A DNA stretch of 64,000 nucleotides. Origin: Paramacrobiotus metropolitanus (lineage: Eukaryota; Tardigrada; Eutardigrada; Parachela; Macrobiotidae). Location: positions 558,001 through 622,000 of the forward strand of contig NW_026570305.1 of assembly GCF_019649055.1 (NCBI RefSeq), read 5' to 3'. The notes under the pieces were generated by a model. That model was not told the DNA's origin. It did not search any database and saw only the letters and a list, made by a program, of their open reading frames with translations. The translations under genes were made by a program, and so were the position numbers. Positions 32,859 to 58,169 of the stretch are shown piece by piece. The first letter of the stretch is position 1, and every line of letters starts with the position of its first letter.

Positions 32859-33396
32859 TTATTCCAGTTTGGTCACTTTGACGCGGATTTTCTGTCCAGT
32901 GCAGTCAGCCTCATACTGCTGTTCGGCGCCGCCAGCCTGTAACAGCAGAGAACTTAAGAATAAAAGCGGCGATTAGCAACCCACCCATACTAATTTTATC
33001 AATATCAACTGCTCAATTTGGCTATGTAATAGAGCACTTATACATGTCCTGTACACTTAATTGCAGTCAAAGTAACAATTTTATGTTGCTCACCCGATGA
33101 TTGACTCGCATAGTGTTATCCACCATATGAATACTTCGTGGTCCACTGCCGGCCGTGATCTCCCAGATGTACTTTTCTTCCGTCAAACTGTTCTTCAGAT
33201 CTCGGTCAATCTGTTCGCTGATCAGGGACAGACTGGATTCGGATGTAGCGTGGTTGGAGCACGCTGCTTCGCTGGCGCTGTTGACTTTGTCGAAGACGCC
33301 GGGGTTCATCTTGCCGCTGGCGTCCTGGTTAACGGTAAATACGGCATGGATACCGGAAACTGTAAGCAGTACCGTCAATAACAGAACGGAAATCAT
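32859..33396 (-). CDS. G1: small secreted protein, family G
   Basis: Two exons: 33396-33094 and 32936-32859, joined in phase 0; 126 residues. Signal peptide MISVLLLTVLLTVSGIHA, then FTVNQDASGKMNPGVFDKVN, a helical part with one Cys (AACSNH), the segment YIWEIT, and MVDNTMRVNHR at the splice. The last exon carries QQYEADCTGQKIRVKVTKLE. The two Cys could form a single disulphide. The start at 33396 is chosen by alignment with G3; an upstream Met at 33435 exists. I do not recognise the family: a helix followed by beta strands recalls small folds such as cystatin or dynein light chain, but no diagnostic motif is present. Confidence 0.75.
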
Positions 33397-33861
33397 GTTT
33401 GCGAGAAAAATTATACAAACAAACCTTCGGAACACGCCGCACAGTGAACCAGCGCGTGTACATTTACGGTAGCGGAACTATTCCGTATGGGAAAATTCGC
33501 TTTATCTTGCTACGGATCTCAGTGGTTAATCGAACGTACTGCAGAGTGCAGACGCTATGAGCCTTGATTGGAAACCATTCTGAGCCATTTGCCGTTATAC
33601 AGTCTCCTCTCGGTATTAATTACATGTAGGTATATATCAAAAGACGCCGTAAACGAAGGCAGTTCGAATACATATGAGTGGACCGAAAATATTAAGTAAT
33701 TACGTACATGTACATATAACTAATAGCCTACACCGTATAGTTATAAAAGCAAATCACAATTCTTCGTTAGTTATTTTCGGCATTTTAAAATATAAGAGCT
33801 GGCCAACAAAATATCTATGCTCTCCTCATTTAATATTCCGATTCTAAAAACTTTTTGCAGA
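33397..33861. other. stretch between G1 and F1
   Basis: Promoter side of G1 and 3' end of F1. Nothing else recognised. Confidence 0.45.
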
Positions 33862-34305
33862 TTAAAGATTTTTTCTGCAGAAATAAAGAATTTTGTTCCG
33901 TTATACGACACCTTATCTAGCCGGAATTATACAGATGCTATAGCTTTTTTTATCGATAACTTACTCCTGAAACGTTCCGTCACGACCTACTTCTAGCAAT
34001 CGGCTATCACAATGCACAAACAAGCAATACAACCACAATAACGGCTTCCGTTTATCAGAGCTACCGATACTTAACCGTACAGAGTATACACGCTATCGAT
34101 AGGTCACTTGCTTACTTTCATTTTCGTGTCCATTGGTATGTTCATCATCGATGGCTCGACCCATCACAGCGTAAACCACCTGAAAAGGTCAGAAGCAAGT
34201 CTTTATCATCGATCGATACATTCGGATAAACGGATTTTAAATATTCCCACTTACCAGTGACTGTACCGCGGAAGCGAGGAAAATAGCTGCGGACAAATTA
34301 GCCAT
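33862..34305 (-). CDS. F1: small secreted peptide precursor, family F
   Basis: Exon 1 (34305-34255, 51 bp) encodes the signal peptide MANLSAAIFLASAVQSL and ends at GTAAGT in phase 0. Exon 2 (34179-34116) starts after TTTTCAG and gives VVYAVMGRAIDDEHTNGHEN. Two tiny exons (33992-33965 and 33874-33862) continue in phase and end KVGRDGTFQEKNL, for 51 residues in all. Exons 1 and 2 are well supported by the paralogous F2 copy; exons 3 and 4 rest on splice sites (GTAAGT, TTTCTGCAG) only. Function unknown; it sits beside G1 as in the duplicated block. Confidence 0.55.
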
Positions 34306-35027
34306 AGTTGCGGAGAATTAAAAAGAAGGAACTGTGGAATTCAGTTGAAATTAAAAGTTGGGGAGGTAGTGTGATTTATTTTTGAGCCAACAGAAGCTTA
34401 AATAGTCAATTTAACGCCCTACTCCGGCACTCAAGTTGATATTGGTTTGCAATCCGAGAAATTATTCTACCATGTTTAGGCGAAACCGTTCGGCAAGTGC
34501 AACCACTTCAGAATCATCAGCGGTTGGTTCGACATTCAAGCCGATTACAGTAATTTATGCAGTTTATCCTTAATGCGAGGAGCATGGTAAAACTGTTAAC
34601 ACTGCATTTATTAAGTGCATTCCGAAATCTGTCTCGAAATTCACTACACGGAAAACAATGGTGCTGGAATTGGTTTGTAAGTACTGCAAGCTTCTACCAA
34701 GTATTCAAGCCTGGCAGTCGTTAACGGAAACGCTGCGTTTGTTTTGCTTACTATATCAGACGGTAGAATAATAAGTACAAACACAGCGCCCCCACTAACG
34801 ACAACCAGACAGAGAAAACATGTGGATGCTTTTTTTAATTTTTCAAATTTTTATTTACATAGTGCGACCGCGCCGGATACATACTGTATTTCCGTTATTT
34901 GGGTGGCTGTATATTGCCCATTCATGTTTAAGTTGTTGGTTTACCGCTAGTTAAGCGAATTCTGCAGTCCATGGCACAAAAAGGTTTGATTGGGATTTCT
35001 TTATGGGTTAATCATTAATGAAAGTAC
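34306..35027. other. upstream region of F1, duplicated upstream of F2
   Basis: 34310-34720 matches 42660-43300 closely (for example AATTATTCTACCATGTTTAG and GGAGCATGGTAAAACTG), except for a 200-bp insertion in the second copy. A TATTTAAG core promoter lies near 34410 on the minus strand. Confidence 0.65.
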
Positions 35028-35187
35028 CAAGCTTTATTTTTGTGATCAGTACATAGACGGGAAGATCTACCGCAACAATGATTTCCTCTGAATGCTTGAA
35101 GATTTTTTGTCCAGTCGATGGTAGAGTTTCGATCACGTCGAGCAGGAAACCTGTCCGTTCAGTGACATAAAGATTTGAATGTAACAG
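35028..35187 (-). pseudogene. F3-like pseudogene, last exon only
   Basis: The minus strand reads LLHSNLYVTERTGFLLDVIE, then TLPSTGQKIF and EEIIVAVDLPV, corresponding to the last exon of F3 (LLQSHVAARTSFLSSENE, TLPQTGRKTS, EEIVITVDSPV). Exons 1 and 2 are deleted: the sequence passes directly to the region matching the far upstream flank of F3 (35200-35380 with 44730-44890). It marks the same gene order as in the second block. Confidence 0.7.
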
Positions 35188-36739
35188 CTAACGGAAGGGA
35201 AACCGGCAAGCCGTGGTACTGGTTTCAGAAAACCGGCACCACTTTGAAATCGCAGTTAAATTTCTTTACTGATCGCACTTCTTTATCGAAAGATAGAGGT
35301 TGTAAAATAGCTGCAGCCGCTTTTGAGACATGTATGTGATTCACTTTCAAATGCAAATCGTGCACAAAGAAAATTAATTTTAATACAGTTTTACCATTTC
35401 ACCTCTAATGCTAAAAACATTTTACCTATGATTAATGTATCATTATTGAATAAATTTTACCCAGTCTTTTCCGACCTTTTAAACCTTCTGGGTTCTTTGT
35501 TGCATTTCTGGCGTAATTAGATTATTATAGTCGTGATTTTTCCAGCGGCGGAAATCGTGATATCAAGAAATACATTCGGATCCATAACTCAAATATAGTT
35601 CATTCAGCACGTGGTTAAAACATTTCTCTTAAAAATTTAGCGCAGCAATACATTACGATAGAAAATATATTTTTTAATTACAACATGGAGGCCTGTTTTA
35701 ACCAGGGTGTCTAAAAACAGTTCAGTTAAATCCGAAAAGGGTGTCTATAATAAACGGGGTGCGGAAAAAATGGGTGGCTGACTGGCTGTAAAAAACAGGG
35801 GCGTAAGGGGTGGCTGTAGTGTCACCCTACTAAATAACTCTTCAATTCTGGGCGTTTTTGAATTTTGCTACAATTTACAGATTCGGAGCGAAGGGCTCAG
35901 CACTCTTTTTTTTTATCCAAACAAAACTAATAAACCGGTCAGCTCAATAAGTGCCAATAATGTAAATTACAATTCTGATGAAAAGATGAAGTACCTATAC
36001 AAAAGCATAGTCATGCGAGTACAACTGTGACAGAATGTACGTACTCGTATACCCGAAAAGAGCACTGTGAGTCATGCAACGATTGCGGATTTTCAAAGAC
36101 CATTATTATTTTATAACTGTACGATGCCACATTTTTTTTTCTTTTTCTCTTGTCAGACCAGCGCCGCTCTACAATAGTGAAGGCTACTGACGTAGCCACG
36201 TCAGTAGTCTGACCAGTAATTTATTTATGCTAGAAAGCAGTGCAAAAAGGTGTTCGGAAATGCGTGAAAGTTCTCGTACACACTCACGAAATTTGCGCCG
36301 ATTACCGGCACACTTTTCTTAACAGTAAATGTGCATCTTTTCTAGTAGAATGTCAGTCGCCTGCAATTTCAGGCGGCACCTAGCGAGTGTAGAGCATCTA
36401 CCAAATTTAACATAAGATATTTTAGCAGAACGTCGCAGTTTCGCATAATCTTTGTAAATTTTTAATGTTTGGAAGTTAAAATATTTACTGCTAACATGCA
36501 AGAACGATCGCATGCCACATCGCAAGCAATTTAATTAGTTATTAGGTTTCCATTCGCCAGTAACAAACGAACTATTGTACAAACAATCATAAACAACAAC
36601 AATGATAAAACTGGATTGGCCCAACCTAAATAATCAACGCTCTCCGAGTCCCCAGTAAAGGTTAATACAACAAATATCTGTATCATACGAGTTATCTACC
36701 GTAACGGTTGACAATATGGATTTGCAGGACATGCATAAG
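35188..36739. other. spacer between the duplicated blocks
   Basis: AT-rich, no supported exon. The stretch 35200-35380 is the duplicated F3 upstream flank. Otherwise nothing seen. Confidence 0.5.
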
Positions 36740-37276
36740 TTAAAACTGATTTTCGGCTCTTGTTTCGGAACCAGCCGCATAGGAATCGGATGATTCCAGC
36801 TGGGTCACCTTGATGCCGATCTTTTGGCCACCGCAGTCAGCCTCGTACATTTGTGCGTCGCCGCCAGCCTGTAATAGTCAAGAAAATTGAAAACGTAACA
36901 GTTTGTCAGTGGTGCTTAGTAAAGTACAGTATTGCAGCTTCTTTCAACATTAATTGATCACTTTTACTGTAACTGGAATCAGAACATTTATAATGCTGAC
37001 CCGATGGTTGCGTCGCTCGGTATTATCCACCATGTGTATACGATGCGGTTCCCAGCCAACAACGATTCGCCAGATGTACTTGTCTTCCGTCAAACTGCTC
37101 TTCAAATCCCGGTCAATCTGTTCGCTGATCAGGGACAGACTAGATTCGGATGTGGCGTGGTTGGAGCACGCTGATTCGCTGGCGCTGTTGACTTTTTCGA
37201 AGACGACGGGGTTCATCTTGCCGCTGGCATCCCGGTTAACCGTAAATTTTTCAATGCTAGGAACTGTAAGATACAA
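36740..37276 (-). pseudogene. G2: family G copy with lost signal peptide
   Basis: Exons 37276-37001 and 36868-36740 encode FTVNRDASGKMNPVVFEKVN, AACSNH-like ACSNHATSES, YIWRIV, and a last exon with MYEADCGGQKIGIKVTQLE plus an 18-residue extension. Compared with G1 and G3, the initiator ATG position reads GTG and the signal peptide region contains a TAG and TGA in the ancestral frame, so only a short non-hydrophobic start (MYLTVPSIEK) remains. The donor is a weak GTCAGC. Probably a pseudogene, though the body of the protein is intact. Confidence 0.65.
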
Positions 37277-37762
37277 CGCCTATTTTCGAATGGAATGCAC
37301 TTTTATTGGAAAAATTGTAGAAATAAACCGAAAGCGTTATTGCCAACATCAACTGTCAGCGTAGTACCGTAGATATCATGTAAATACTACGGGTAGGAAA
37401 ATGTACCGAACTGCGGATTAGTAGACCGGAACGCAGTGCAGTTGTACAGTACCATCCTTGCATGCATGAGTTACTCGTAAATTGCGCGCAGAAGGCGTAA
37501 ATGAGAAAAATCAGAGAAAGCTTTCTCTTATCTGTCATTGTAGAAAGAGAAACGCAATATTATACGACGCGTAATCTAGCAAGGATTATGTGTGCTCTAG
37601 CGTTTTCACGGATAACTATTCTTTAAAAGTTCCATCACGACCTCTTCTAGCAAGCGGCTACCAAAACTGAAAAAAAACTACAACCGCTACAACGGCTTCC
37701 ATGTACCGAGATACCTATCGGTGTAGCCCGTTGTCATACCTACTGATAGGTGACTCGCTTAC
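37277..37762. other. stretch between G2 and F2 exon 2
   Basis: Contains the counterpart of F1 exon 3 at about 37650-37680, where one base is missing and the donor GTAAG is lost. Nothing else recognised. Confidence 0.5.
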
Positions 37763-37869
37763 CTTCGTTTTCCCTTGCTTCATTGATAATTCGGCCCATT
37801 ACAGCGTAAACCATCTGAAAAGGTCACCAGGTTTTCGTTATCGATCAATATCAAGGAAATAGATCTATA

Positions 37870-39641
37870 TTATGATCGGCCGCCCCGTGGAACTTGGCTA
37901 GAAAAAACCGCCAAGCAAATTAAAAAACCGATTTCACCATTAAACTCAGCATGTCCCAAAAGGGTCCCACATGCATTTTGTTTTCAAAAATATCTGCTCT
38001 GGACCGTCGCTCGGATGCCGGTACCGGTACAGGCATCAGTTCAAGGTGACCTTGAAAGACATTTTACATAAAACACTTGCGTGGAGCAGCTAACATTCAA
38101 ATGCAGAGCATGTAGTGTAATAAAAAAAAACTGTAATTTTTCCGAATACACTCCGAAAAATTTTTCAGCTTTGTCACGCTTCAACAAAATGCTCTAAAGC
38201 GAACGGGAAAGCGCTTTTGCACTGGAACTGTTTAGCTTTTTCGCGTTCTTATACATTGTTCTCTGTGCAATGTGTGCATTACAAAACACTTAAAAATTAA
38301 CTTAAAAACCAAAGAAGTTGTCGGGTTCGGTGTAAAACGATCTTAGTACTCATATTACGGTATGCTCACGCGTCTATATGCAAATTTGGGATAAGATATC
38401 GAATCATAATAAGACTTTTGAATGCCACCTGATGCATTTATTTTAAACATTTTAAAATTTTATTCTCCTTATATCTCATAAAGAATTTTCATATAAAGTA
38501 CAAATCCTTTGGCTAGAGGGTGAAATTATGAAAGCTATGAAACTAAAAAAGCGTTTGAGGGTGCGAGAGCGAAAGTTTGCGAACGTATTGCTTATACTTA
38601 CCTGCATAGTTCCTTTACATATTAGGTATAGAAAGCGAAATCGCACTTCGTCCACTCGGTGGTAGAAAACAGGCAATGTCTAACCATAGTTTGCGAAAAC
38701 TAAAATTTGCGAGTTAAGTTTTAGACTAAAGTTTGCGAAAACTTTCGCTTTCTAAACTTAGAAAGCGAAAGTTTACTGACCGTGAGTTTTCCTATGCAGT
38801 GAAAAACTCACTGACCGGACCGGCATATGAGAACAAAGTTCTTCAGCTTTCGAATGAACAGAACCGCACAAGGGTTACACTATCCACTAACCAGACCTAC
38901 TGAGTTACAGGAAATATACTGACCGTCGATCAGGCCTGTAGAGTGAACGGAAGCTAAAGTTTTAGGGAAGGGATATTATCTTAGTGTTAGTGGCGTAGAC
39001 CAGATAAGAGCAGAACCGTTATCAGTGTTCAGCACAACGCTAATGCACCAGCTGTCAAACGGACAGAACTGTGCAGAAGCTGCCATGTCTAAATAAAGGA
39101 ACGGTCGCCATTGTCCGAGATCCTCAATTTACCACCGGCCTTACCTCCCCTTACCACAAACAGTGTGACCGCGAGGGCTGGTTTTATTTGTTGGTGGCTA
39201 TTGCCAATACACAAAAAATGTTAACTACCTAGTACCGGGTAGAACGACATCCCGTGTAAATGCAATCGCCATTAGATGCTTAAAATCTCTGTCAAAAAAT
39301 TTTTTTGGGAACAGTTATCCGGAAACAATCGAAATTGAGAAAGAGCCAACCCAAAGGCCATATATATCAGTGCTTAGGTATCACTAATTAGGGCTGCTGC
39401 GTAAACGGAAATTACAGGACCCTCTATTGCTGTTACTAATGTTCAGTGAGTAGGACAACGTAATCTCTGTTGCTCGTTATCACTACATACTTCTTGCTGC
39501 CGACTGAATCAAGAATAAAAAAATTATCAAAAAATCAAAAAATCACACTACTAGAGAACGAGTACTGTATCTACCGACCAAACCTACTGATTACTGAACA
39601 AAGGATATTATTGTCCTCGATCAAAATTGGTTTCCACGTAC
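37870..39641. other. left part of the F2 insertion
   Basis: Non-coding as far as I can see. Degenerate repeats of GAAAGCGAAAGTTTGCGAA-type lie at 38550-38780, including a perfect hairpin (38739-38774). May belong to the inserted element or be an older insertion. Confidence 0.45.
38739..38774. repeat. perfect hairpin, 17-bp arms
   Basis: AAACTTTCGCTTTCTAA and its exact complement are separated by only two bases. Confidence 0.9.
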
Positions 39642-40148
39642 CAGTTATTAAAAGTAGCGAAGCAGAATTATTAGAAACTTAGCACCGCTGACCGCTCTCC
39701 GATTATTAGTCGTGCTATCTAACTATTTTGTTTCACATAAAACGAACCGCTCAGCTATATAATGCTGTTTCCTGATTAAAGCAAGGTAACTGAAGCTACG
39801 AACAGCGCCTAATCATACAAAATGTAAAAATATACACACAAACCAGGCTTCAGAAATAAATGAACAAGGATTATTTTTCAAGGAATTGAATGCAGACCAC
39901 AAGAGCATCTGAGGCGAAGCCGAAGATGACGGGAAAGATTATGCCAATAATCTGCATATTATTGGACCTGGTGATGGTGGGTGGAGCGCTGTGGTCTGTC
40001 CTGTCTGTTCAGTGGTTTGATGGTCAATGGTCAGCGTGTACTATATATAGCTGTTCGCAGTGTATGCACCCACACTTGGCACTGCGTCCGGCAATGATGA
40101 AGTTTAGATTTTTTTCTAATTTTGGTTAATCCCATATCTGTTTACGCC

Positions 40149-41333
40149 ATGGTAGTGCCAGCGTCAAAGTCCGCTTTGCGTAAGCTTAGCGTTCAGAAGT
40201 TGAGGGAACTGTGTGTTGAATTAGATATTTCTCATGGGGATACCGACGGCAAGAACGCACTTTTGCAGCTTCTAGAGCCTCGGATGTTCCCTGTGGATGA
40301 CACCAATTCTATTGCCAAAGTGGTTGTGGAACTGAAGTTGGACAGGAAATGCCAGAGTGAACTGGAAGCCGAAGGGATATCCAGCAAGTCTGCCCTGTTG
40401 TGCCTTGGAGAATCTTCCAAGTTCCCCAGTAACCTGGATATTGTAAGCCGTGAAGGAGTTCGTTGCATCCTGGAGCGATTCATCCGTGCCGAGAACAGCG
40501 GCCGCGGTCGGGAAAAGCCACCCAAGCCAATTCCCTATTTCCGCGAAGCCAGCCCACCGCACGGCAGTCCTGGCCAGCGTGCAGTCAAAGGTCACGCCGA
40601 CCGCAAAGAGGTCAATCTTCCCCGCAGCAGTGCTACCGCGGGTGAGTATGATAATCTGAAGCCGGCATGCTTGCACCGCTCTGTTTTAGTCATTTCAATT
40701 GAGAGTGATAAGTCTGAGTTTATGGCCAAAAGTTTTAACTGCTTCCCAACGGAAGCACGTAAACTGCAGAGGCCGCATGAGCTGGCGTGCCCTAAACCAG
40801 GGTCGAAAAGCAAGCATGTTTCTCCTCTTGATCTTTCACTGGATGAGTTTTCCGTTCACAGCTGGCGAACAGCGGTTAAATTGTGCAAAACTCTGTCTGG
40901 ACAGTATGCAGAGACGCTCCTGGAGCATCTCGAATATAACGAATACTTGGCTTCTATGCGTTGTAATTTTACGGATGAGGCTGTTCTTGAATTTGACACC
41001 GACTTTCGACATTCTGCTGAGAACGAAGGGTTTTCGTTAAATGATTACCAAGCACGAAATACTGTCAGTTCCAAGCATTTTCATGCGATTAATCGCCGAA
41101 CAGAGCATGGCGCCGATCAAAGCGACAAAGGTCAGCCTTTTCGCGGTCGCAGTGGCGCCAAAATGTCCCGCTATAAGTTTGCATGCTGCTTTGCCTTTCA
41201 AGAAGGCAACTGCTCTCGGTCATCTGCTTCCTGCTATTATTCGCACGTCTGTGGTGAATGCGGGAAACGCGGGCATGGCTATCATGGCCACCGAGACTCA
41301 GGAGCTGCGAGCCCTACTGACACTGATAATTAA
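40149..41333 (+). CDS. gag-like protein with SAP-like and zinc-knuckle motifs
   Basis: About 394 residues from the Met at 40149 (a Met at 40122 is also in frame). Near the N-terminus, LRKLSVQKLRELCVELDISH resembles a SAP or LAP2-like helix pair. The middle is polar and basic with no recognised domain. The C-terminus has a Cys/His cluster, CCFAFQEGNC then CYYSHVCGECGKRGHGYHGH, as in nucleic-acid-binding retroelement gag proteins; I recall similar clusters in DIRS/Ngaro-type elements, but this is from memory. The ORF is intact, consistent with a young element. Confidence 0.6.
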   Translation: MVVPASKSALRKLSVQKLRELCVELDISHGDTDGKNALLQLLEPRMFPVDDTNSIAKVVVELKLDRKCQSELEAEGISSKSALLCLGESSKFPSNLDIVSREGVRCILERFIRAENSGRGREKPPKPIPYFREASPPHGSPGQRAVKGHADRKEVNLPRSSATAGEYDNLKPACLHRSVLVISIESDKSEFMAKSFNCFPTEARKLQRPHELACPKPGSKSKHVSPLDLSLDEFSVHSWRTAVKLCKTLSGQYAETLLEHLEYNEYLASMRCNFTDEAVLEFDTDFRHSAENEGFSLNDYQARNTVSSKHFHAINRRTEHGADQSDKGQPFRGRSGAKMSRYKFACCFAFQEGNCSRSSASCYYSHVCGECGKRGHGYHGHRDSGAASPTDTDN

Positions 41334-41521
41334 TTTAGCTTGTCTTAATTACTTTGGCAGTGCAGACTCAACGGGTCTGCGTCGCCCTTTTTATTTGGCT
41401 CTGTATTGTGGTCTGACTAGGAATTTTTATTACTGGGTCATCGTGTAATTGCGCGCTAGTAGCGCATATTGTAATTTGCAGTGTGTCCCCATTTGATTAT
41501 CTGGTGTTCTTGGAATTTTAA

Positions 41522-41570
41522 TTATTGCATTGCTTCGGCGACGCATTATTGCATTGCTTCGGCGACGCAT
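41522..41570. repeat. 24-bp tandem duplication
   Basis: ATTATTGCATTGCTTCGGCG is followed by ACGC and then repeated directly, in the non-coding 3' part of the retroelement. Confidence 0.8.
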
Positions 41571-42654
41571 TGTGTCTTATCGTTTATTCTGAATGTGGGT
41601 TAGAAGCATTTTTGCTTTTGTTGTGCGTTTTGACATGTGAGGCAAACCCTGTTTTCACAGGCTTCTCTTTGGGAAAGTGGGACAGCTCCTGCTAACCTTT
41701 GCGGAGAAAGACCTCTTTATATGTGCAGAATAATAACCCGCCAGATTTACCAAACAAGTGATATCAATATCTTTTGCATTATTCATTTACTGGAGTCATT
41801 ATTTCTCAAGCCGACTAAAAGCAGTGTTCTACATTGTCGCAGTTTGGCATAATGCCTTATTTACCACCGGCTTCGGAAAATACGCATAAACTATATTAGC
41901 TGCCGCGCATATCCTTAATTAAAATTTCGCTGTAATACATTTTCTGCTTGGCGCTACTTTAATTATTTTTCTATAATGTCTTATAAGGCTTTCATTAAGT
42001 TCATTGGCGATAAAGTGATCCACACTTTTAAGTCTTAACGAAATTTAAGTGTGACCTTTCGGTTTCTGTCTATTTGTAATCCGCCTTGACACAGTTTTCA
42101 CTGTGTGGCAGTACGTCAATGTCTTGTGGATTTCCGCCGTAACCACGCGCAAGGTTCCTGATTTTTTGGTTGCTCCAACTTGCCTCGCCATCGGAATATC
42201 TGGATCATAATCGACTTACCCACCTGTTTGTGTTGTGTTTTTCTACTCTTGGGGGTTTGGAGGTTGTTCCCGCAGTTATTAAAAAGTAGCGAAGCAGAAT
42301 TATTAGAAACTTAGCACCGCTGACCGCTCTCCGATTATTAGTCGTGCTATCTAACTATTTTGTTTCACATAAAACGAACCGCTCAGCTATATAATGCTGT
42401 TTCCTGATTAAAGCAAGGTAACTGAAGCTACGAACAGCGCCTAATCATACAAAATGTAAAAATATACACACAAACCAGGCTTCAGAAATAAATGAACAAG
42501 GATTATTTTTCAAGGAATTGAATGCAGACCACAAGAGCATCTGAGGCGAAGCCGAAGATGACTCTTGTAATAGGATAAAGCAATATTTAGCTTTACCACT
42601 TACCAGTGAATGTACCGCGGCAGCAAAGGAAATGGTTGCAGACAAACTGGTCAT

Positions 42655-43990
42655 AACTGCGGTGAAGAAAAAAGAGTTAACTCCAGGATTCGGCTGCAAA
42701 TAATGGTTGGGAATGTATAGTGTAATTTATTTCTTAACCATTCGGGCTTAAATAGTCAGTTTGCCGCTTTAATCAAGCTCTCGAGTTTGCAGTCCGAGAA
42801 ATTATTCTACCATGTTTAGGCGAACTGTTCGACAACCACTTCAAAATCATCAGCGGATGGTTCGACATTCATGCCGATTACAGAATATCTGCATTTTCTC
42901 CTAAAAGTAAGGAGCATGGTAAAACTGAAACGCTGCATTTGTGGAGTGTATTCTGAAATTGTCTGGAAATTCACTACACGGAATTGAAGACAATGGTGCT
43001 GGAGGTTGCTGGAACGAGTCTGTACTCTGTATTTATATACAGTAATACAGTTAGTAAGCCTCTTCGAATGTACGTTTTTATTCGGCTTCGGCCAGCATAC
43101 ATAATAAATCGCCTGCGCAGGTTTACACTAATTAAAAGCATCAAATTTTTAAACATTAAAAAAACATCCAAAATCGTTAGTGTCACGCATGATCTTAGGA
43201 CGTGCGTTAAGTGAACCCAAAACAGCTGCTGCATTTCCACGGACTACTTCGAATATTCAAGTCTGGTTGTCGTTAATGGAGATACTGCGATTAAGTTGCT
43301 TAAGTGGCTTTACATCGCATATTAAATTTATATCATTCCTGTATAACATACTGGCCTATTGTACGGCGTGTTACAGTAAATTCTACAGTTCATGACACTG
43401 GATACAGAAAGAATGTTTGAGTTTTTTAGATTAACATACATGATTGTGGTGGCTTTGATTAGCGTGAACAAGATTTTGTCAGCACAGATTTTTTTATTTG
43501 TTTTTATTTTAACGTGGTTTTCGTAAACGGACATGGTGTGGTTACGGATAACGATTTATTAATCGAAAAGCACGAGCAGAGGAAAAAGACTGCACCAGAG
43601 TACACAGTAGCATCGTAAAACAATAAGCGTTGCAAATCCCTTCGAATGTCTGTATTGCATCGCATCTGTACAGTACATGTTTTATTAAATCCGGTTATGT
43701 AATAATTATTTTTAATATTAATGCAGCCATACATTCTACATACAATTTGCATAGTCTACATACAAGAATCTTTTTGCGCGTGTTGGTTCATTTGCTCACG
43801 AATCGGATAAGATGTTTGCCCCAGAAAACTGGCCCCCTAACATTGGGGTGCGTGAGTGGATGTTTGCCCCCAAGGAGGGTCAGCAGTCTATTTTTACTGT
43901 TTAAATTTTCAATCATTTTAGTTAGTTTCTACCAGCGCAAGCTTATTTTTATGTGAACTGGCCATTGCCGAATTAAAAGTATTTGCATAG
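42655..43990. other. upstream region of F2 and 3' flank of F3
   Basis: 42660-43300 corresponds to 34310-34720 upstream of F1, with an extra 200 bp at about 43018-43222. The minus strand has a TATTTAAGCCCG core promoter near 42750. No additional gene seen. Confidence 0.55.
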
Positions 43991-45476: not shown

Positions 45477-46063
45477 TCAATCTGCAAGCGCCTTGACTTT
45501 CGTGACCTTTAAGGTAACGTCGAAACCGGGCTGGCATTCAGCTTGGTAAATTTGTTCAGTTCCAACTTTCTGCAATATAATTTAAGCCCGTTTTGATCCC
45601 ATACGAGTAAATATTTTGTTCGCCTTAATCTTACAGCTTACATTATAACAAACCCCTAACGAACAAACACTGTGTCAAGTTTTATCCGATAGCTTACATC
45701 ATAGCGAAACCAGCGTGCCGTGTTATCCAGCCCAGACTCTGCCCGTGCACTGACGAAGCTCCCTTCCCAGATGTGTTCCGACACGCCTAGACGCCGCATT
45801 AGATCCTTATCCACGTCATTGCTGACCATAGACGCCGGGCTGAAGGACATAAAGCCTTTGGCTTCCATGCGCTTGGAAGCGTTGACTGTTTGGTCGAAAT
45901 CGGAGCAGGCTTCGGCGACGGAGCCGTTAACCATACGGAAGACATCCGCAGACATCTGCTGACCGGTCTGTGGTTTGACGATCAGCTGTCGGGCCTGAAC
46001 AGTAAAAAGCACTGTAAACGCCGCGACAATGATCCCCAAACCCATTTTGTTAAAATTCGACAT
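45477..46063 (-). CDS. G4: small secreted protein, family G
   Basis: Two exons: 46063-45698 and 45569-45477 (93 bp), joined in phase 0; 152 residues. Signal peptide core GLGIIVAAFTVLFTVQA, then MSADVFRMVNGSVAEACSDF, DVDKDLMRRLGVSEHIWEG, a domain longer than in G1, and a last exon with EQIYQAECQPGFDVTLKVTK. Donor GTAAGC, acceptor ATATTGCAG. The two conserved Cys (ACSDF, QAEC) are kept. A Met six residues in may be the true start. Confidence 0.75.
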
Positions 46064-46950: not shown

Positions 46951-47049
46951 TCACTTGCGTTGTAAAAACGCGTGAACTTTGGCGACTTTTACGGTTGCAT
47001 TGAAACCAGGCTGGTATGCAGCTTTGTCTATTTCTTCAGATCCAGTTGT
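46951..47049 (-). pseudogene. orphan last exon of family G
   Basis: After a TGTTTCAG acceptor the frame reads TTGSEEIDKAAYQPGFNATV and KVAKVHAF to a stop, 33 codons. It resembles the last exon of G4 (EQIYQAECQPGFDVTLKV), but the conserved Cys is replaced by Tyr and no matching first exon lies within reach upstream. Likely a relic. Confidence 0.6.
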
Positions 47050-48200: not shown

Positions 48201-48442
48201 TATCGGCCTTCACACTAGCGGTATTTGTAAATCTCACAATAAGCGGGTCTCAGTAAATCTAACTGATATTCAGGAAAAAATCATTTCCATGATTTCAGCA
48301 CGGTTTCGAGTGTTATTTTATACAGCGAATTAGAAATAAACAATCTAGATGACTATCGTTTTCGCAAAATATTAATGTTTTTGACGCGTACTTTATTTGA
48401 ACGCAGTCGATAACTACTTCAATAACACCATAATATATTATA

Positions 48443-49006
48443 TCAAGGTTCACAAGAATCGCAACCGTATCCTAGCATGTCAGGCGTGATGTACTCTCTG
48501 GGTGCGTGTATCCTGGTGATCGTCAGGGTTATACTAAAACGTCCCTCGCACTCCGCTTCAAACGTGGCTTCCACTCCCGTTGTCTAGAACAACCAACGAA
48601 TCACCTTTAGCCTTAATAGTTAAGCATTAGCGAAAAATTTTAATTTTTCATCAGCCTTTTGCTTTCGTATGGAAAAAAGCGGACAATATTTGCTTCGGAT
48701 ATCGCCCTGACTCATGTGCTTTGCTGATATGCTCCTCCCAAAAATATTCAGTAGCGCTCAAACCATTATTCAGTCCCCTATCTACTTTTTCGGCGAGCGG
48801 GACATCTGCTTCATTGGGTAGCTTTTGGCATAATTGACAAGGTTCTCGTAATCGGAGCAGACACCGATGACGGTTTTATTGACACTGTCGAAATCGTAAG
48901 TCGGCAGCTGGTTGCCGGTGTTTTCTTTAATGATCAACGTAGCATTTATGAGCGAAAAGACAGCCAGGACGGCCATAGTACTCCTCACCACACACTTTGC
49001 CGGCAT
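48443..49006 (-). pseudogene. G7: family G copy with a frameshift
   Basis: Exon 1 (from 49006 or 48976) gives a signal peptide MAVLAVFSLINA, then TLIIKENTGNQ, DFDSVNKTVIGVCSDYENL. A one-base change follows: the ancestral frame resumes as LAEKVDRGLNNGL and EYFWEEHISK in another frame. The last exon (48583-48443, after TTGTTCTAG) reads TTGVEATFEAECEGRFSITL with a longer tail. I could not place the donor of exon 1. Probably inactive unless the shift is an assembly error. Confidence 0.55.
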
Positions 49007-50213
49007 TTTCTGCACAGTATACAGTAGAAAATACAAAACTGTATACATACAGTACATTGGCTTGGAAACCGTTTGTGGGCGCAACATCCGGTGGGGGTTC
49101 ATAAATTCCAAATTCCAGAAGCTTAAACGCACTGAGGTGTTCGAAAAGTCTCATTATCAATGACCTTCTTTAAATTTTTTACAAAAACGGACATTAGCAT
49201 GAAGATCGTTTTTGTGCTAAATCAGATTTCCCCTATTTTTTCCAAAATTTAAAATAACGTTTAAAATTCATGTAGCGGCACACTTCCTACGTACGCGTGT
49301 GGAACGGGTTAACAATGAGTCAGTGACAAATAATGCAGAAACTGAGATGAAACACCTGCTTCAGGCTCAAAAATGAGCAGTTATTTGAAGTTCAAATACC
49401 ACTCCTTACACGCCAACTGGTTATCCACAAGTACAATAATCAGTTACGTATTCTAATAATGCCAAAATATTATTACTACTGCTTTACGTACATTATTACT
49501 ACTACTTTACTTTACTACTTACTACCTGCTACTTTGTATTATTGAAAGGTCACTAGAGCATTTACGAATGTAAAAACGTGCTCGTACAGCTGTGCATGTG
49601 AGAAAAGCACTGATCCTCTCGCCAACTTGGCAATTCTAGATGTGCGAGTTCCTCTCCGTACGGGTACACCAGAAATGCAGTTGTCCGGCTGATTTGCTTA
49701 ACTGCAGTGGTAAATTGCAGTGCCAAGTACTGCTGCAAGTGCCAGGTACTGCAATTCGCTGGCTTTGATCACGCTGAGAAATACCAAATTCCAAAGCAAG
49801 CGATTGCATAGTATATACAGTAGCTGCTGTGTTAATCGCTGTTGTTGGACGTTGGAGTTGGCTTGGACGCTGTTGTTTATGAGGCCTCCCACTTAGCACT
49901 CGGATGGTAACATGTCTTCTTCGCTCCGGAGGTCTCAACTGTCTATCGAGAGTACTATACTATTGAGACCTGATTGATCGGTTGTTGGGTTTGAATAGAC
50001 TGCTTCGATGTTCTGAGCGGGAAGGTCACGGCCCCTTATAACGGGCTTTGGGTTTCTCATTAACATTGGCGAAAATGGTGTAAAAGAAATAATAAAGCTT
50101 ACCGTGTTTGTAATACGTAATACAGTGTTTGAGAGAACGCTACATACGACAAAATGCTGACAGTAGCATAGCAATAATTATGCCGAAACCGCAAAGCGAA
50201 CTTTGTGGTTCTA
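49007..50213. other. intergenic stretch
   Basis: A TTACTACTACTTTACT-type simple sequence lies at 49480-49530. No exon supported. Confidence 0.45.
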
Positions 50214-51122
50214 TCATAATGCTTTTACTTAGTTGTGACCAAAGTTGTATTGTTAGGCGCTTTAAAACACGGCCCAAGGCCCGAAACTGCAGATTTTGAG
50301 TGTCCCTGTACCCCTTGCCGAGCGTAAAACGCATGCAAACCGAAAAAAATCGAAACCACAACTTAGCTGTGTGCAGGGGTTCTCTGTACCTCTCTTAAGC
50401 TGCCGATCTCAGAACCCAGCAAACTGGAATTCCGTGTACAAACAACAGGAATTAGAAAAAAAACTGTTGAAATGATTCTATTAAAAGTAATATTAATTTT
50501 TAGTATTATTTGTCGTGCTCTAGACTGTAAAAAGTATCTAACTTGCGGTGCAGTTTAATTTTCTCGTTAATTTGACCATAGCTAATCGCAGAAGTTATCT
50601 CTGCCATGCAGTGCGAACTGCGATTGGAGCTGAACGATCTGACATGCCAAATGCGTAATTTCAGATTTGGCGATCTTCTCGTGAAAGTTCATTTTGTTGT
50701 AATTTGATTGTTACTAGTATTTGTTTTGAAACTGATATTTCATTTGCACCTTTTTATTTCCTTCTGAAAGCTACAGATTAAGGAGAAACCAAGTGCTCAG
50801 CGTACGGCAGGTTATCTGCGTGGGTTGGAACAATTCGTAAATCGTGTGTCCACCAATGGCAGTCTTTGGCAATGCGGATTGGCTGTACTGAGCTACTCGG
50901 ATTGCTAATAGAGTAATCCAAGCGTAACTTGCACGCTCCTTGTAGTTCACACGCACGCAGACCCTGTAAGCTGCACGCTCCGCCTTCCTGTTTAAGATAC
51001 GTTTGCGCAAGGCGTAAGATTACGTCATCACACTACCCGCCTGGCGTAGCTGGGTTTTGGGGCCGTTTTCGATATTAATAGTTTGGTCACAACCAGTAAA
51101 AGCATTATGGTTCTATCATTCT
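50214..51122. mobile_element. candidate foldback element, about 0.9 kb
   Basis: The ends 50214-50293 and 51037-51122 are imperfect inverted copies sharing ATAATGCTTTTACT, GTTGTGACCAAA and the ACGGCCC region. The inside has no recognised coding region. Confidence 0.5.
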
Positions 51123-51483
51123 GTAAATAGTGTTTGTTAATCGTATGGGAGAACGTATTGTCAATGTCGCGCAGCGACTCCCGAATTCTTTTTTCTTTTG
51201 TGAGTAGCAGTTTTCTTGTTGGCCTCCTTTGTCAGGTTGGAATTCCATAAGCGGTCATTTTTATTTAAAACTGACTGAAATTACGCATAGGCAAACTCTA
51301 GGGATATTTATCGTAGCGCAGCACAGAGAACGTACTAGTACAGTACAGATACAAAACAGCGAAAAATATTGCCACGATGCGAATTGGTAACTATGTTAGC
51401 TGGACTTATTTCCTTTTACAGATGTTAATCGTGTCCGGTTATCGGGTTATGATTAACGAAGACATAGGAGACTGGGGGGAAAC
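51123..51483. other. 3' flank of F4
   Basis: Nothing recognisable. Confidence 0.4.
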
Positions 51484-51823
51484 CTATCCTGGGCCGCCTG
51501 GACGCCAGCGATTGATTTGATAAAGGGGTGGATGAGGGCCACCTTGAACTGTCCGTTTTGTAGTAACAGGCGCAGTCTGTGTGGCGGTGACTTCAGGTTG
51601 ACCGCTCGAAGCGGCTGTTTCGCTGCCGGTAGTGGGATCGATCGGAGTATCAAATGGTTTAAAGTCCTTGTCATCAACGGCATCCTCGGCGTAAACCACC
51701 TATTAATTACATATATGATATACGTAAAGGTTGAAATTTTGGCTGATATCGTTAACAAAAAAGAACGCTTACCAACGCCAGTGCAGCAAAAACGACGATG
51801 AGGCCGATACGTGAGGACTTCAT
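51484..51823 (-). CDS. F4: small secreted peptide precursor, family F
   Basis: Exon 1 (51823-51773, 51 bp) encodes MKSSRIGLIVVFAALAL and ends at GTAAGC in phase 0. Exon 2 (51699-51484, 216 bp) opens VVYAEDAVDDKDFKPFDTPI, an acidic pro-like part, then a Thr-rich region with TTKR and the end VQGGPHPPLYQINRWRPGGPG. It totals 88 residues. The basic KR before a Gly/Pro-rich tail recalls the processing site of F5-F7. Upstream, 52051-52112 carries the family F regulatory module. Function unknown; an antimicrobial-type or signalling peptide would be a guess. Confidence 0.7.
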
Positions 51824-53548
51824 GGTGCCGGAAACTGAAAAACGTGCGTTAAAGGACAAAAGTGTTTAATTACGAAACCTTGCGATAACCGAATTGTGAG
51901 TTTTCCTGTGAAGCAACACGGCCTTAAGTAGGTAAAACTTTCCCTTAGTCTGCTTGCATCATCGCATTTCACACACTTGAGCTTTAATTCCAAGATTTCC
52001 GAGCGCAGGAATTCATGGTCTAGTCATAATTCAAGAGGAATACGAGTAAATGGTGCGACATTCACGCTGATAACGCTGATTTTTCATGAAGTGGCAGGCT
52101 GGTAAAATTGTAGTTGATAGCATTTTTATGTAGTTCGGGAAAACCTTCCTGTAATTTTTTCTTGTAAATTTTAGAAAATGATATAACCAATGTTGTTTAC
52201 TTGATAATGGAAATATACTACAGAACATGCTGAAAATACATATACACGTGTCTTTGATTTTGTTAGCAAGTAGCTCATCCACGTTCATCTTAAAAATTAA
52301 TATTCCCTGTTTTTTTCCCATTTAAAATACAAATCGCAGGAGTACATCCTGCAGTTTCTGCTTAATATTTCTTTAATCATTGCTACAGCAGCCTCATAGT
52401 GTGTACTGACCGTCTCCCCGTCGAAGGAAAGAGTGATTCGTCTGCCTGACCTTTTTATAAGAGCATAACAGAAATCACTGAGAACATTTTTGAAGACGCC
52501 TTCCTCCCAATATGCAAGCGATGTCTTGACTTCCGGTTTACGATTAATGTACCAGTACGTACATATTTTATCAACAAAAATTTAATACAAATACAGTAAT
52601 CTTATTATCGCTCTCAGAGCGGGCAGCATCGAAGTTCACGGGGAAACGCGGCATCCGTCTTGGGAACCTTCGGCCGATTTAGATGTTCCATGTACGAGTA
52701 ATTCGGCCGCCTGTTTTCGCTGTTTGTTGATGCCGTGTGGGTTCTGTTTGAAATGTTTATTTGACATAACTAACTGTACATGGCAGTAAAATACTTACTG
52801 TATTTACACAACACCTGCTGTATTTACAATAAGAGCCACAAAAATGTCCGGGTGCGCGCAGAATATTCGACGGCTTTTTTGAACTTCAAAGAAGCCGCGT
52901 GCTACTTTTTACGGCTTCCGCCATTTTGGTGGCTCTTAAACTTGTGTAAATACAGTATTTTATGCTCTCCACTCTATATTTAGGTTACGCTCTCTGAAAA
53001 TAAATTGTTATATTTTTTAGCTTTCCGTGTAAGTGCTGATTCCAGTAATCGTAAGTATGATTCGTAACCAGTATAATTTGGGCCACATACTCTGTACTCC
53101 AGTTCTGGTTGCCAGAATCTGAGTCAGCTTAACTGTGCGCTTCCTCCAGTACGTGGTGGTGGCCTTACCGGTAAAAACGTGGTAGCGTTGCCGGCAAAAA
53201 CAATAATTTCCTTCCTGGCACTTCAAAGTTTTGCCGGTTCGAGATTTTTACCAGCCACGTTGCTCCGGAAAACGAGCCGCTACGGCATGATGCCTCGTCG
53301 AAATACTTCGGTAAATTTTTCCGTGTCAACATTTTAAGAAGTTTCCCGGGAAAAAAACTGATGAGTACTTACTGCTTAGTGCTCGAATGGCTTTTGCGTT
53401 AGCCTGCGTCAACACAAGCCAGCTGTACAATCCAGCGAAACTTCCAGTATTTAAGCCGCGGCTGCTTAGAATAGACCTCATCAAGCAATTTTCCAATCTC
53501 CATAAACCTGATTTTAAGTGAAACTCACAACGTCTTCCTAAAACAGTC
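51824..53548. other. divergent upstream region of F4 and F5
   Basis: F4 (minus) and F5 (plus) are head to head. The shared module lies at 52051-52112; TATTTAAGCCGC before F5 is at 53447-53458. No other exon found. Confidence 0.55.
52051..52112 (-). promoter_or_regulatory. family F upstream module, F4 copy
   Basis: On the minus strand: TTTTACCAGCC, CACTT, CAGCGTTATCAGCG, AATGTCGCACCA. Same order as before F6, F7 and F8. Confidence 0.6.
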
Positions 53549-54060
53549 ATGAAGGTCACGTTTTTTATCGCCATGGCTCTCGCAGTCACTGTGCTATCAT
53601 TGGTGAGTAATTCCCGTATTTTAAGTGTCAGACTAATCCTGAAGCAGAGAATCAGTGTTGCTCTGATGCGGGGTAATGCTGCTTGTGTTCAGGAAACGTT
53701 TTGTATCGGTAAGAGGCTTGATGAAGTGTATTATGTGTTAAAATGATGTAACGCGTGATTTTCTGTTTGACAATTATTGTTAATTTGAATAACCCAATAA
53801 AAAGATACCATCAGATTATCATAATGTCATGTGGTTTCTTTTAGGAGATCCATTCGGTAGCGGGTGATAAGGCGCACGATTCCAGTGAAAGCCACGCCGT
53901 TATTAGCGAAAATTCCCCCTTAAACTCCTCTGTCCCCAACGGTGCCGTCGCCTCGCAGCATGGAGCGATTAAGTCTGGTAACAGCCGAGTTGTACGGTCC
54001 GATACTGGTTACCACCCACACCCCCCTAAAGCACCGCACAATAAGTACTGCCGTGGCTGA
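53549..54060 (+). CDS. F5: small secreted peptide precursor, family F
   Basis: Exon 1 (53549-53602, 54 bp) encodes MKVTFFIAMALAVTVLSL and ends at GTGAGT in phase 0. Exon 2 (53845-54060, 216 bp, after TTTCTTTTAG) has no internal Met: EIHSVAGDKAHDSSESHAVI, a Ser/Asn-rich stretch, NSRVVRSDTG, then HPHPPKAPHNKYCRG to the stop; 89 residues in all. RVVR is a furin-type site, which would free a 21-residue or so His/Pro-rich peptide with one Cys. A TATTTAAG box lies about 100 bp upstream. Exon 2 has the same length as in F4. Confidence 0.7.
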
Positions 54061-54603
54061 AGCGGTCGTATCGAAACACCGCCTGGCTGGCTCGCGGCGC
54101 TGCCATTTTCTTTTGAAATGACCGGCGTCGCGCTATTCGAATTTCTCGAGCATTTTTAGCCTTCCTGGTTCTGCTTTAAGATGCAGATTTTGTACAATTT
54201 AATATACCACTGCCGCACTGCGCATTTATGTAACTAGCTTAAGTCAACTATCGAGAATGCAAGCATCGCCCAATAAATACTTGTAAACCGTAAAATATCC
54301 CCATACGACGAATTATAACAGACTAACTGGAACTTTACTGTGCCAAAAATTACAAGTAAGAATACACCAACGATCAAACTGGACCGAGATACGTTACTAA
54401 CGCTGGCCGAGTCGCCAGCAAGCGTCGATGCACAATGGTAATTTGTACACATTATACAAATTCACTTAATGACAAACCATAAGGCGGTATTTGTATTGTA
54501 CGAATATCAACTGTAACGGTTAACGACATGGATTTCACCAGATGTATATAAATAAAATTATTTTTCTTTTCTGCATTCGTTTCCGAGCCGGCTGTGAACC
54601 AGG
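54061..54603. other. 3' flanks of F5 and G3
   Basis: Convergent ends. 54405-54590 matches the 3' flank of G1 (32650-32850). Confidence 0.5.
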
Positions 54604-55098
54604 TTATTCCAGTTTTGTCACCTTGACGCTGATCTTCTGTCCACTGCAGTCAGCCTCATAAAGCTGTTCGGGACCAGCAGCCTGCATCATGTTTTTAACA
54701 CTTGCGGTTAATACGTACAGTATTTCGACTTCTCTACTAAACAATCTTCTTAACCGTAGTCTTCTTAAGTATTTATGATGCTCATTGCTCACCCGTCGAT
54801 TGAACCGCAAAGAGTTATCCACCATGTGAATGTTGCCAGATGTACTTGTTTCAGCCGTGATCTCCCAGGTGTACTTGTTTTCTGTCAAACTGATCTTCAG
54901 ATCGCTGTCAATCTGTTCGCTCATCAAGGACAGACTGGATTCGGAGGTGGCGTGGTTAGTGCACGCTGATTCGCTGGCGCTGTTGACTTTGTCGAAGACG
55001 TCGGGGCTCATCTTGCCGCTGGTGTCCTGGTTAACGGTAAATGCGGCATGGATGCCGGGAACTGCAAAGAATACGGTCAGAAACAGAATGGAATACAT
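54604..55098 (-). CDS. G3: small secreted protein, family G
   Basis: Exons 55098-54793 and 54681-54604 (78 bp), phase 0; 127 residues after splicing. Signal peptide MYSILFLTVFFAVPGIHA, FTVNQDTSGKMSPDVFDKVN, ACTNHATSES, YTWEIT, MVDNSLRFNRR at the splice, then QLYEADCSGQKISVKVTKLE. The 111-nt intron (GTGAGC...ATGCAG) has a length divisible by three and no stop, so an unspliced mRNA would still encode a 164-residue protein. Closest relative is G1. Confidence 0.78.
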   Translation of the reverse strand: MYSILFLTVFFAVPGIHAAFTVNQDTSGKMSPDVFDKVNSASESACTNHATSESSLSLMSEQIDSDLKISLTENKYTWEITAETSTSGNIHMVDNSLRFNRRVSNEHHKYLRRLRLRRLFSREVEILYVLTASVKNMMQAAGPEQLYEADCSGQKISVKVTKLE

Positions 55099-56203
55099 GC
55101 TTGCAGGAAAGGTTGTGGAAATAAACCAAATACGCTACTGACAAATTAACTGTAAAATTGTCAGTTCAGTACAAAGTGAAAGCGAGTGTACTTTTGCTTT
55201 TCCGGGAACCCAGTACACCAGTACACGGTACATAAGTGCATGTATATTTTAATTTACAGTAGCGCAACTAACTGGCACGTATGGGAAAATTCGCAAAACT
55301 GTTTTATCTTGCTGCAGATCGCCTAGATGAGAGCGATAAACTGAGCTTACAGAAGACGATACATGGGTCTTGAAAAGAAAAGCCTTTCGCTTTTGTACAG
55401 TATCGGTATTAGGTTTTAAACGGTAACCCGACGCCTCGGTATTAATTACCCCTGCATACTAAATAAAAAGTCACCGTTAACGAGACAATCAGAGGACGCA
55501 CACGAGTGAACCAACAGTGCTCGTAATAATTATTATTTACAGTTACAGATTGTACATGTAAATATTGCTACAGCGTACGATTATAAGAGCCTACTAACAG
55601 CGTTCCCGCACCCCGGTAACGTACCGCACAAATACTACTGCCGTGGCCGAAGTGTCGCGTCACAACACGGCATCTGGCTGCCTCGCGTCGCATACATAGA
55701 ACCTTTTTGTAATGATTGGCGGATGAAGTACCCGAACTTCTTTAGTACTCTTATTTTGTGCGATATATTTTTTGACAGTGCTTTAAAGTGCACAATTTGT
55801 AAAATACACTGCCGCACTGCGTGTTTATTTAGTAACTAACCGTAAATTAACCATCGCGAATGCAAGCGTCGCCCAATAATTACATGTAAAATGGAAACGA
55901 TTCCCAAAACAACAGGTTATAACAGATTAACTGGAATTTTACCGCATCTTGTTTGGAAATGTAGCGACAAAATCTGTACTATAAAAATCGTAATACGGTT
56001 CCCGACCGTTTTACTATAATCAAAAGCGTTTCCCACGTTTTTTAAGGGTATTTCCTACTTTTTAAATTATTCCAGCATTCCTGGTAATGGTTGTGCTAAC
56101 ATCGGCGCTTCACAAAATGTATCACAAATATGTCAACACAACACAACAAACAATAACTGATAAACCGGGTTTCTCTCCTTAATACATCATCAATTTTCTT
56201 CCT
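55099..56203. other. intergenic stretch
   Basis: 55590-55690 resembles 54030-54110 (GCACAATAAGTACTGCCGTGGC- and CGGC-TGGCT-like matches), a remnant of the F5 3' end including its last codons. No intact gene. Confidence 0.5.
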
Positions 56204-56747
56204 TCACTCTTGTTTGATCTTGAGGACCTTTATTGTGATCTTAGTCTTTCCAAATCCATTGCAGTCGGCTTCGTATACTTGTGCCGGTCCAATTTGCTAC
56301 GAAAACCATAACATCACGTTAATAACGAGTTCGAGTAAGTTAGTACAGTGCCATAAGGCATATCATGGATGCCTCAGTTCTGCTTTATGAAATCTTTTAC
56401 GTAAAGTTTCTACGTAGTTTTTAATTCGCAAATACCTTGAAACTGCGCTGACGTTGCGAGTTGTCCCGGATTTCTTGTTTTCCTTTATCATCCCTGACAG
56501 TGGCGATAAATGCGAAATTTGAAAGATTCAGCTTCGGTGTCAGATTACTGTTGATGGCATCGACTAAGGCATTCAGTGGTTGCACTTTGGGCTTGGTAGC
56601 GGTAAAATCCGAGCATGCTCTCTGCGCAGCGGCGTTGACCTTCGTAAAGATGGCTTTCTCCATCTTACTACTGGCTTTCTCGTTTAGCACCAGTGCGGCA
56701 TTGGTCACCGCCAAAACAACAGCCGATAAAACTAAAAACGTGTACAT
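56204..56747 (-). CDS. G5: small secreted protein, family G
   Basis: Exons 56747-56436 and 56296-56204 (93 bp), phase 0; 134 residues. Signal peptide MYTFLVLSAVVLAVTNA, ALVLNEKASSKMEKAIFTKV, ACSDFTATK, a helical NALVDAINSNLTPKL, FAFIATVRD in place of the Trp-Glu segment, DNSQRQRSFK at the splice, and QVYEADCNGFGKTKITIKVL. Donor GTATTT is weaker than in the others. A TATAAATA box lies on the minus strand near 56850. Confidence 0.75.
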
Positions 56748-57620
56748 TTTTGTGTCAGAAAAATTACTGTGAAGCAGTTAATTTTGTTACTAAATACGGT
56801 TGCAAGGTTTCTGCAGATATTGCAGTATGTCGCCTGAGTCGCGCGGTATTTATACATAGTTGAAGACCTTGTTGTTATGAACGCAGCTGTGTCTATATGT
56901 ATTTTTCACAAATTGACGATCTCGGCGCAACAACAGACGGCGTATTGCGCTTTTTCAACAACATTGTTCGAATTCATTCTTAAGACTGCTTTTTGCCTCT
57001 GGCGCATAAAACGCGCAAACAAATGACAACAACAACCGACAACCGTAAAACATATCGGCAAAATGTCACAACAATCAATGACAACATCGGATAATTAAGC
57101 ACGTCTATTTAATCAGCATTCGGTAACAATTAAATCTTTTTGCGGTTAGCGTTATTGTTTAAGTGAGCAAGCTTGCGTACCGTACACATGTTGTCTAAAC
57201 CTAAGATTTTTTTTAATTAAATAACAACATGTGCCTTCGGCCAATCGCTAAATCAGACCATGATGTTGTGCTCTGCAGTTTCATTTGTGTGGAAAACACA
57301 AGACAGTAATTTCTTCGAACCGACGCTGTGCAATCTGCACTAGCAATATGTTCCAGTAAGTGATCAGGTCCAAGCAAGCGAACTGACTGTACAATACCGC
57401 GAACGATTGTATCGTATGATTCGTATCCGCCATAGCATTACTTTACCGTCAATCCAAACGTTACGAAATGTGATTCACTACTCACGATCCCGCGTAGCTT
57501 TAAAAAATCACTTTTTTAAACGAGGCTTTCTAAAAGCTATGTACTTCTGATCTAGGTATTACGCTTTACGCATTTTAAAAGAACAGCTTTTTGCAGTTAC
57601 CGGCATATTTTCACAAAAAC
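56748..57620. other. divergent promoter region of G5 and G6
   Basis: G5 (minus) and G6 (plus) are head to head. No exon found in between. Confidence 0.45.
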
Positions 57621-58169
57621 ATGCGTGCTCCATTAGCATTTTTACTGTTAACGATGTGCCTATTCACCGCACATTCGGCACTGGTCGTCAATAACAAAGG
57701 CCGAAATCGCATGGACCAAAGCGTTTTTAACACGGTCAACGCTGCCATTGATAAAGGCTGCTCGGCGTACACGACGTTTGTCAACAGTCCGGGTATGCGC
57801 AGGGACGGATGGAAGTACAACATGTTGGGCCCGCTGAACTGGATATTCGGGGAGTTCATTTCCGCTCTGAATGGCCACTTCGGGCATGATCCCTACGCTT
57901 GGGAAGTTACCACCAAAAGCGGCAATGAAACTGCAACATGGGATAATTTTCAGCGTCAGCGGGAATACAAGGTACGTGTCGAACGGCTCTGTGATATTTT
58001 GTGTAATGTACGTCAGTTATTCAAAATGGCGTATTTCGTGTCTAGCACAAGCTTACATTATTTTTCTTCTTTACAGCGCGATGGCCCGGAACAAATGTAT
58101 CAAGCTGTATGCAACAATAAGTTTCACGTTACAGTAAAAGTTGTTAGAGTGTCATATGATTCGAAGTGA
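57621..58169 (+). CDS. G6: small secreted protein, family G
   Basis: Exons 57621-57971 and 58077-58169 (93 bp), phase 0; 147 residues. Signal peptide MRAPLAFLLLTMCLFTAHSA, LVVNNKGRNRMDQSVFNTVN, GCSAYTTF, a longer middle (PLNWIFGEFISALNGHFGHD), YAWEVTTKSGN, WDNFQRQREYK at the splice, then EQMYQAVCNNKFHVTVKVV. The 105-nt intron (GTACGT...TTTACAG) is again a multiple of three without a stop, so retention keeps the frame. The Met at 57621 is preferred over 57591 because it starts the hydrophobic core. Confidence 0.78.
   Translation: MRAPLAFLLLTMCLFTAHSALVVNNKGRNRMDQSVFNTVNAAIDKGCSAYTTFVNSPGMRRDGWKYNMLGPLNWIFGEFISALNGHFGHDPYAWEVTTKSGNETATWDNFQRQREYKVRVERLCDILCNVRQLFKMAYFVSSTSLHYFSSLQRDGPEQMYQAVCNNKFHVTVKVVRVSYDSK

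Follow-up and report, generated by a model that had tools for sequence, protein, structure and literature searches.

Gene content of the cluster

The window analysed here, a stretch of 64,000 nucleotides (G000:C85:558001-622000) of a eukaryotic genome of 169.8 Mb, contains within positions 32859-58169 eight loci of a family of small two-exon genes, hereinafter family G, of which five are intact, the three broken ones being Gb, Ge and an orphan exon:

Ga, 32859..33396, minus strand: intact; exon 1 33396-33094, intron of 157 nt, exon 2 32936-32859; 126 aa
Gb, 36740..37252, minus strand: no start codon or signal peptide; exon-1-like segment 37252-37001, exon 2 36868-36740
Gd, 45477..46063, minus strand: intact; exon 1 46063-45698, intron of 128 nt, exon 2 45569-45477; 152 aa
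Orphan last exon (TTGSEEIDKAAYQPGFNATVKVAKVHAFLQRK), 46951..47049, minus strand: 99 bp, second cysteine replaced, exon 1 absent; profile E 0.012
Ge, 48443..49006, minus strand: frameshifted, the frame breaking near 48815; exon 2 48583-48443
Gf, 54604..55098, minus strand: intact; exon 1 55098-54793, intron of 111 nt, exon 2 54681-54604; 127 aa
Gg, 56204..56747, minus strand: intact; exon 1 56747-56436, intron of 139 nt, exon 2 56296-56204; 134 aa
Gh, 57621..58169, plus strand, opposite to the others: intact; exon 1 57621-57971, intron of 105 nt, exon 2 58077-58169; 147 aa

A profile built from the five intact genes recovers all eight loci in the six-frame translation of the window, with E values from 1e-53 to 0.012. 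The preliminary description of this DNA had counted at least six readable members; five are intact, because the 5' end of Gb, the mature part and last exon of which are open, lacks both the ATG and the signal peptide. The other elements of the gene layout that it had reported are all found, namely a frameshifted copy (Ge), an isolated last exon with no exon 1 (46951-47049, minus strand), a phase 0 intron near the end of the gene and a last exon of 78-141 bp. In Ga, Gd, Gf, Gg and Gh, the introns are all of the GT..AG type, in phase 0 and 105-157 nt long, and the last exon measures 78 bp in Ga and Gf, 93 bp in Gd, Gg and Gh, 99 bp in the orphan, 129 bp in Gb and 141 bp in Ge.

Two of these introns, those of Gf (54682-54792, 111 nt) and Gh (57972-58076, 105 nt), are multiples of three and free of stop codons, so that translation of the unspliced mRNA would still give a full-length protein, now containing an insert. 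The chance of an intron staying open, given its composition, is 0.03 for Gf and 0.12 for Gh; an extra exon shared by the two genes is unsupported, the encoded peptides being unrelated (P 0.7). The similarity between Ga and Gf extends into their 3' flanks (32647-32833 and 54402-54581, 78-84% identity), and the duplication behind this pair therefore took in downstream DNA.

Other features of the window

Between family members lie two direct repeats of 281 bp (39650-39930 and 42282-42562) that are 100% identical and enclose an open reading frame of 403 aa (40122-41333, plus strand), the C-terminus of which is zinc-knuckle-like and for which Pfam gives no match; the arrangement looks like a very recent mobile insertion. 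Just outside the cluster, the segments 59258-59481 and 61150-61373 form an inverted, related pair (74%). Elsewhere in the window, there is a tandem family of small Cys-rich proteins (12842-13169, 18883-19224, 24362-24682 and 26800-27183, minus strand) with the motif CFRCDxDxCN, which is reminiscent of Ly6/three-finger domains; the two members searched against Pfam (24362-24682 and 26800-27183) had no match. An astacin protease gene is present in two tandem copies (6168-7773 and 21400-23909, plus strand), followed by apparent LDL-receptor-A, Ig and leucine-rich-repeat exons, as judged from the domains searched in the second copy, and a single-exon rhodopsin-type GPCR similar to nematode Srx chemoreceptors maps to 10916-11842 on the minus strand.

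A second cluster

Family G also occurs outside the window, in a second cluster on contig C55. A whole-genome search with Gf gives a weak match on that contig, where both exons fit the family profile, and the 40 kb surrounding the match contain, besides an orphan exon, four more divergent genes that are intact (C55a-d). The C55 genes possess the signal peptide, the phase 0 intron, the short last exon and the two-cysteine plan, as in the window. Further searches of the genome, performed exon by exon and not exhaustive, found only these two clusters, and there are no more members on either side of the window cluster, as far as 538001 in one direction and the contig end in the other. Matches on contigs C1 and C40 (E 5-6) were rejected given that the second exon is absent and the family profile is not matched. 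A search for lipocalin/FABP genes in this genome gave a single, ordinary FABP gene.

Features of the encoded proteins

The nine intact members in the genome (five in the window and four on C55) share a strict plan. Each begins with a hydrophobic core (Kyte-Doolittle values over 10 residues of 2.3-3.6, versus at most 1.9 elsewhere in the protein) that is followed by a small-x-small, A-x-A-like end, and these signal-peptide-like N-termini, as suspected before, suggest that family G proteins are secreted. The mature part of all nine contains exactly two cysteines in homologous columns, one at the end of helix 1 (ACS or ACT) and the other in the last exon (Y-x-A-x-C); both had been noticed in the preliminary description, and the two invariant residues, which are Cys46 and Cys114 in Gf, may form a disulfide. 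The Y-x-W-E segment, which was said to be usual, is less regular: Ga, Gf and Gh have it, Gd and Gb carry degenerate forms (HIWE and YIWR, respectively), and Gg, with FAFI, lacks it.

Sequence comparison with known families

Neither Pfam nor NCBIfam has a curated family that reaches its cut-off with any member or consensus, and a search of PDB sequences with the five-gene profile and consensus gives no significant match. Thus, the earlier characterization of these genes as an unnamed family, clustered and encoding small secreted proteins in two exons, is borne out. The secreted AID/APOBEC-like deaminase family SNAD2 (PF18745; cut-off 25 bits) matches Gh alone, at 18.7 bits, with no match for the other members or the consensus, and was rejected; its zinc motifs (HxE and PCxxC) are lacking in the mature proteins, which have two single cysteines and no CxxC. 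Neither Dynein_light (PF01221; gathering cut-off 29.1 bits) nor Tctex-1 (PF03645; cut-off 22.8 bits) matches the nine members or the consensus sequences at E 10, and for this reason we do not file family G as a member of either.

Profile-profile comparison with hhalign gives a best match to the LC8 group of dynein light chains, represented mostly by sequences from the same genome, with P 0.0007-0.0018 and scores of 23-25, at a reported probability of only 6-26%. As a control, 100 column-shuffled LC8 profiles yielded a maximum score of 15.9 under a strict output parser; a score of 130.9 obtained earlier with a column-shuffled control is attributed to faulty parsing. The comparison profiles included human DYNLL1, DYNLT1, DYNLT3 and cystatin sequences. 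Sub-profiles made from the window genes only and from the C55 genes only agree in aligning to the same helices and the Trp strand of LC8, each with P about 0.005. In the LC8 alignment, the invariant Met of the family falls on the Met of the ADMSEEM helix cap, and Y-x-W-E falls on PTWHC.

Intron position

The canonical LC8 gene of this genome (C113) has 195 coding bases and a 75-bp last exon, separated by a phase 0 intron that follows NFGSY; in a second dynein light chain gene (C54), the intron occupies the same place. In family G, the phase 0 intron lies just before the same hairpin, and the last exon is of 78 bp in Ga and Gf (AAGPEQLYEADCSGQKISVKVTKLE in Gf), the match to the LC8 intron place being exact only when one residue is gapped. 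Several divergent dynein light chain genes with differing intron places are also encoded in the genome (L047 on G000:C54, L050 on G000:C40, L051 on G000:C77 and L049 on G000:C49) and could serve as intermediates in a tree of the family.

Predicted fold and competing origins

AlphaFold models were built from the contiguous read-through of the in-frame intron, with 11 short alignment rows. The Gf model (pLDDT 79.1, pTM 0.70) has the order beta-alpha-alpha-beta-beta-(intron)-beta-beta, and the Gh model (pLDDT 77.8) the same order with an extra short helix in the long loop. Against the PDB, LC8 chains align with the Gf model over 77-81 of 84-86 residues at Z 7.3-7.8 and are tied with unrelated ribosomal S3 domains (Z 7-8); for the Gh model, no match is clear, with ribosomal S3 (Z 6.8) and DYNLT1 (6.1) tied at the top. 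The fold evidence is therefore supportive rather than decisive. Three folds had been suggested for this family; of these, the dynein-light-chain fold fits best by both hhalign and AlphaFold, the cystatin fold is disfavoured and a new fold is unsupported. We consider it likely that family G adopts a dynein-light-chain fold in the general sense, and probably not a new one.

The evidence as a whole leads us to propose, at a probability of about 0.5, that family G is a lineage-specific secreted family descended from an LC8-type dynein light chain gene. The strongest competing view is that no homology to dynein light chains exists, and that a lineage-specific family converged on an arrangement of two helices and four strands. 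The ribosomal S3 domains, which score as high as LC8 with one model and lead the list with the other, speak for convergence, and so does the fact that no curated family was matched; yet under such a scenario it would be a coincidence that the genome's own LC8 gene agrees with family G in the place and phase of the intron and in the length of the last exon, and that the two independent sub-profiles lead to a single LC8 alignment. We regard convergence as unlikely, without taking it lightly.

The same fold could have been reached by another route, family G being a secreted relative of Tctex-1 (DYNLT) rather than of LC8. The structural comparison points in this direction: Tctex-1 chains are the best matches of the Gf model (Z 9.6-8.5 versus 7.3-7.8 for LC8), with DYNLT1/Tctex-1 at the top (9.6, 9.3 and 9.0; best rmsd 3.5 over 90 residues), and a Foldseek search with this model, which returns nothing below E 0.001, places a Tctex1 chain first (E 0.014, probability 0.99). 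However, the profile match is weaker (P 0.03 versus 0.001 for LC8), and the two Tctex genes found in this genome have no intron at the family G place, the one on C20 being a single exon and the one on C39 having a phase 2 intron before the first strand. Furthermore, the N-terminal strand of the family is included in the LC8-type structural alignments, whereas most of the Tctex ones begin at residue 10. Structure thus favours Tctex-1, and sequence and intron favour LC8; taken together, these observations make a Tctex-1 ancestry improbable.

A divergent family of cystatins, that is, protease inhibitors, might be considered given that family G proteins are small and apparently secreted, with a hairpin encoded by a short last exon, as is the case for type-2 cystatins. 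Against this stand a profile P of 0.39, the lack of a match to the Pfam cystatin family (PF00031), the two helices predicted before the sheet, and the only cystatin match in the genome, which is an ordinary stefin-like exon; on the profile comparison and the helix count, we reject cystatins as a very remote prospect.

In the preliminary description, the low identity between distant members had been taken as a sign of fast evolution. For the close pairs (among Ga, Gf and Gb), dN/dS is 0.33-0.41, with a value of 0.33 for the mature part of Gb against Ga and Gf, so that members of family G are under purifying selection; rapid positive evolution is unsupported, and the divergence is better read as the result of old duplications accompanied by constraint. 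Together with the signal-like N-termini and the two fixed cysteines, these values imply that the family is constrained despite the three broken loci. The idea that the cluster is decaying and no longer yields a functional product, which Gb, Ge and the orphan exon might suggest, is scarcely credible in view of this constraint and of the intact frames and splice sites in five window genes and four C55 genes.

A scenario for descent from LC8

Descent from LC8 would involve a short chain of events. The ancestral gene would have had two coding exons, the first (A) encoding the helices and the first strands and the second (B), of 75-78 bp, encoding the last hairpin, with a phase 0 intron in between. 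This gene would have gained a signal peptide and two cysteines, one in helix 1 and the other in the first strand encoded by exon 2, which could form a disulfide outside the cell, and would then have been amplified into at least two clusters, the beta-alpha-alpha-beta4 fold being kept in the mature protein. We put forward more tentatively the fuller version of this scenario, under which a dynein light chain, made extracellular by a signal peptide and a disulfide, was amplified into several paralogue clusters that acquired new extracellular ligands.

The last hairpin of LC8 is hydrophobic on both sides; one face packs on the helices, and the other makes the dimer and the peptide groove. The corresponding hairpin of family G has one hydrophobic face (Y, A, C, I, V, V) and one polar face (E, D, K, S, K). 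If it is the hydrophobic face that packs on the helices, the exon-2 cysteine would lie against helix 1, beside the other invariant cysteine, and a disulfide would follow, as expected outside the cell. With E, D, K and S on the groove side, the dimer of LC8 and its groove for TQT peptides have probably been lost. The partners of LC8 bind in grooves at the dimer interface, and the monomer has no such grooves (PMC3995210). Family G is thus probably not an LC8-type dimer. Its proteins might instead act as small, stable, disulfide-clamped extracellular binding domains, with ligands that differ among the paralogues, although such a binding role is doubtful.

LC8 is among the most conserved hub proteins of eukaryotes, and no secreted branch of the LC8/Tctex fold is known to us; in the literature library searched, no paper links tardigrades with secreted dynein light chains, nor did any paper stand out as dealing with secreted LC8 families. 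If correct, the descent of family G from LC8 would imply that the fold is able to move out of the cytosol and to diversify as a secreted, disulfide-bonded, multi-copy derivative, and would account for a set of otherwise nameless secreted proteins.

Comparison with known systems

With the cystatins (PF00031), family G has in common small size, secretion and a hairpin encoded by the last exon, but cystatins have one helix where family G has two, and no profile match connects them. Tctex-1/DYNLT (PF03645) provides the highest structural Z score for the Gf model (9.6) and differs in its weaker profile match, in its gene structure in this genome and in being cytosolic. LC8/DYNLL (PF01221) is cytosolic too, and family G differs from it in the signal peptide, the two extra cysteines, the loop longer by about 10 residues between the first two strands of the sheet, the polar groove face and the absence of similarity at the Pfam level. 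What family G shares with LC8 is the best profile match, the predicted order of elements, the [DKRQ]-M helix cap, the aromatic strand after helix 2, the phase 0 intron ahead of the last hairpin and the length of the last exon, 24-25 residues.
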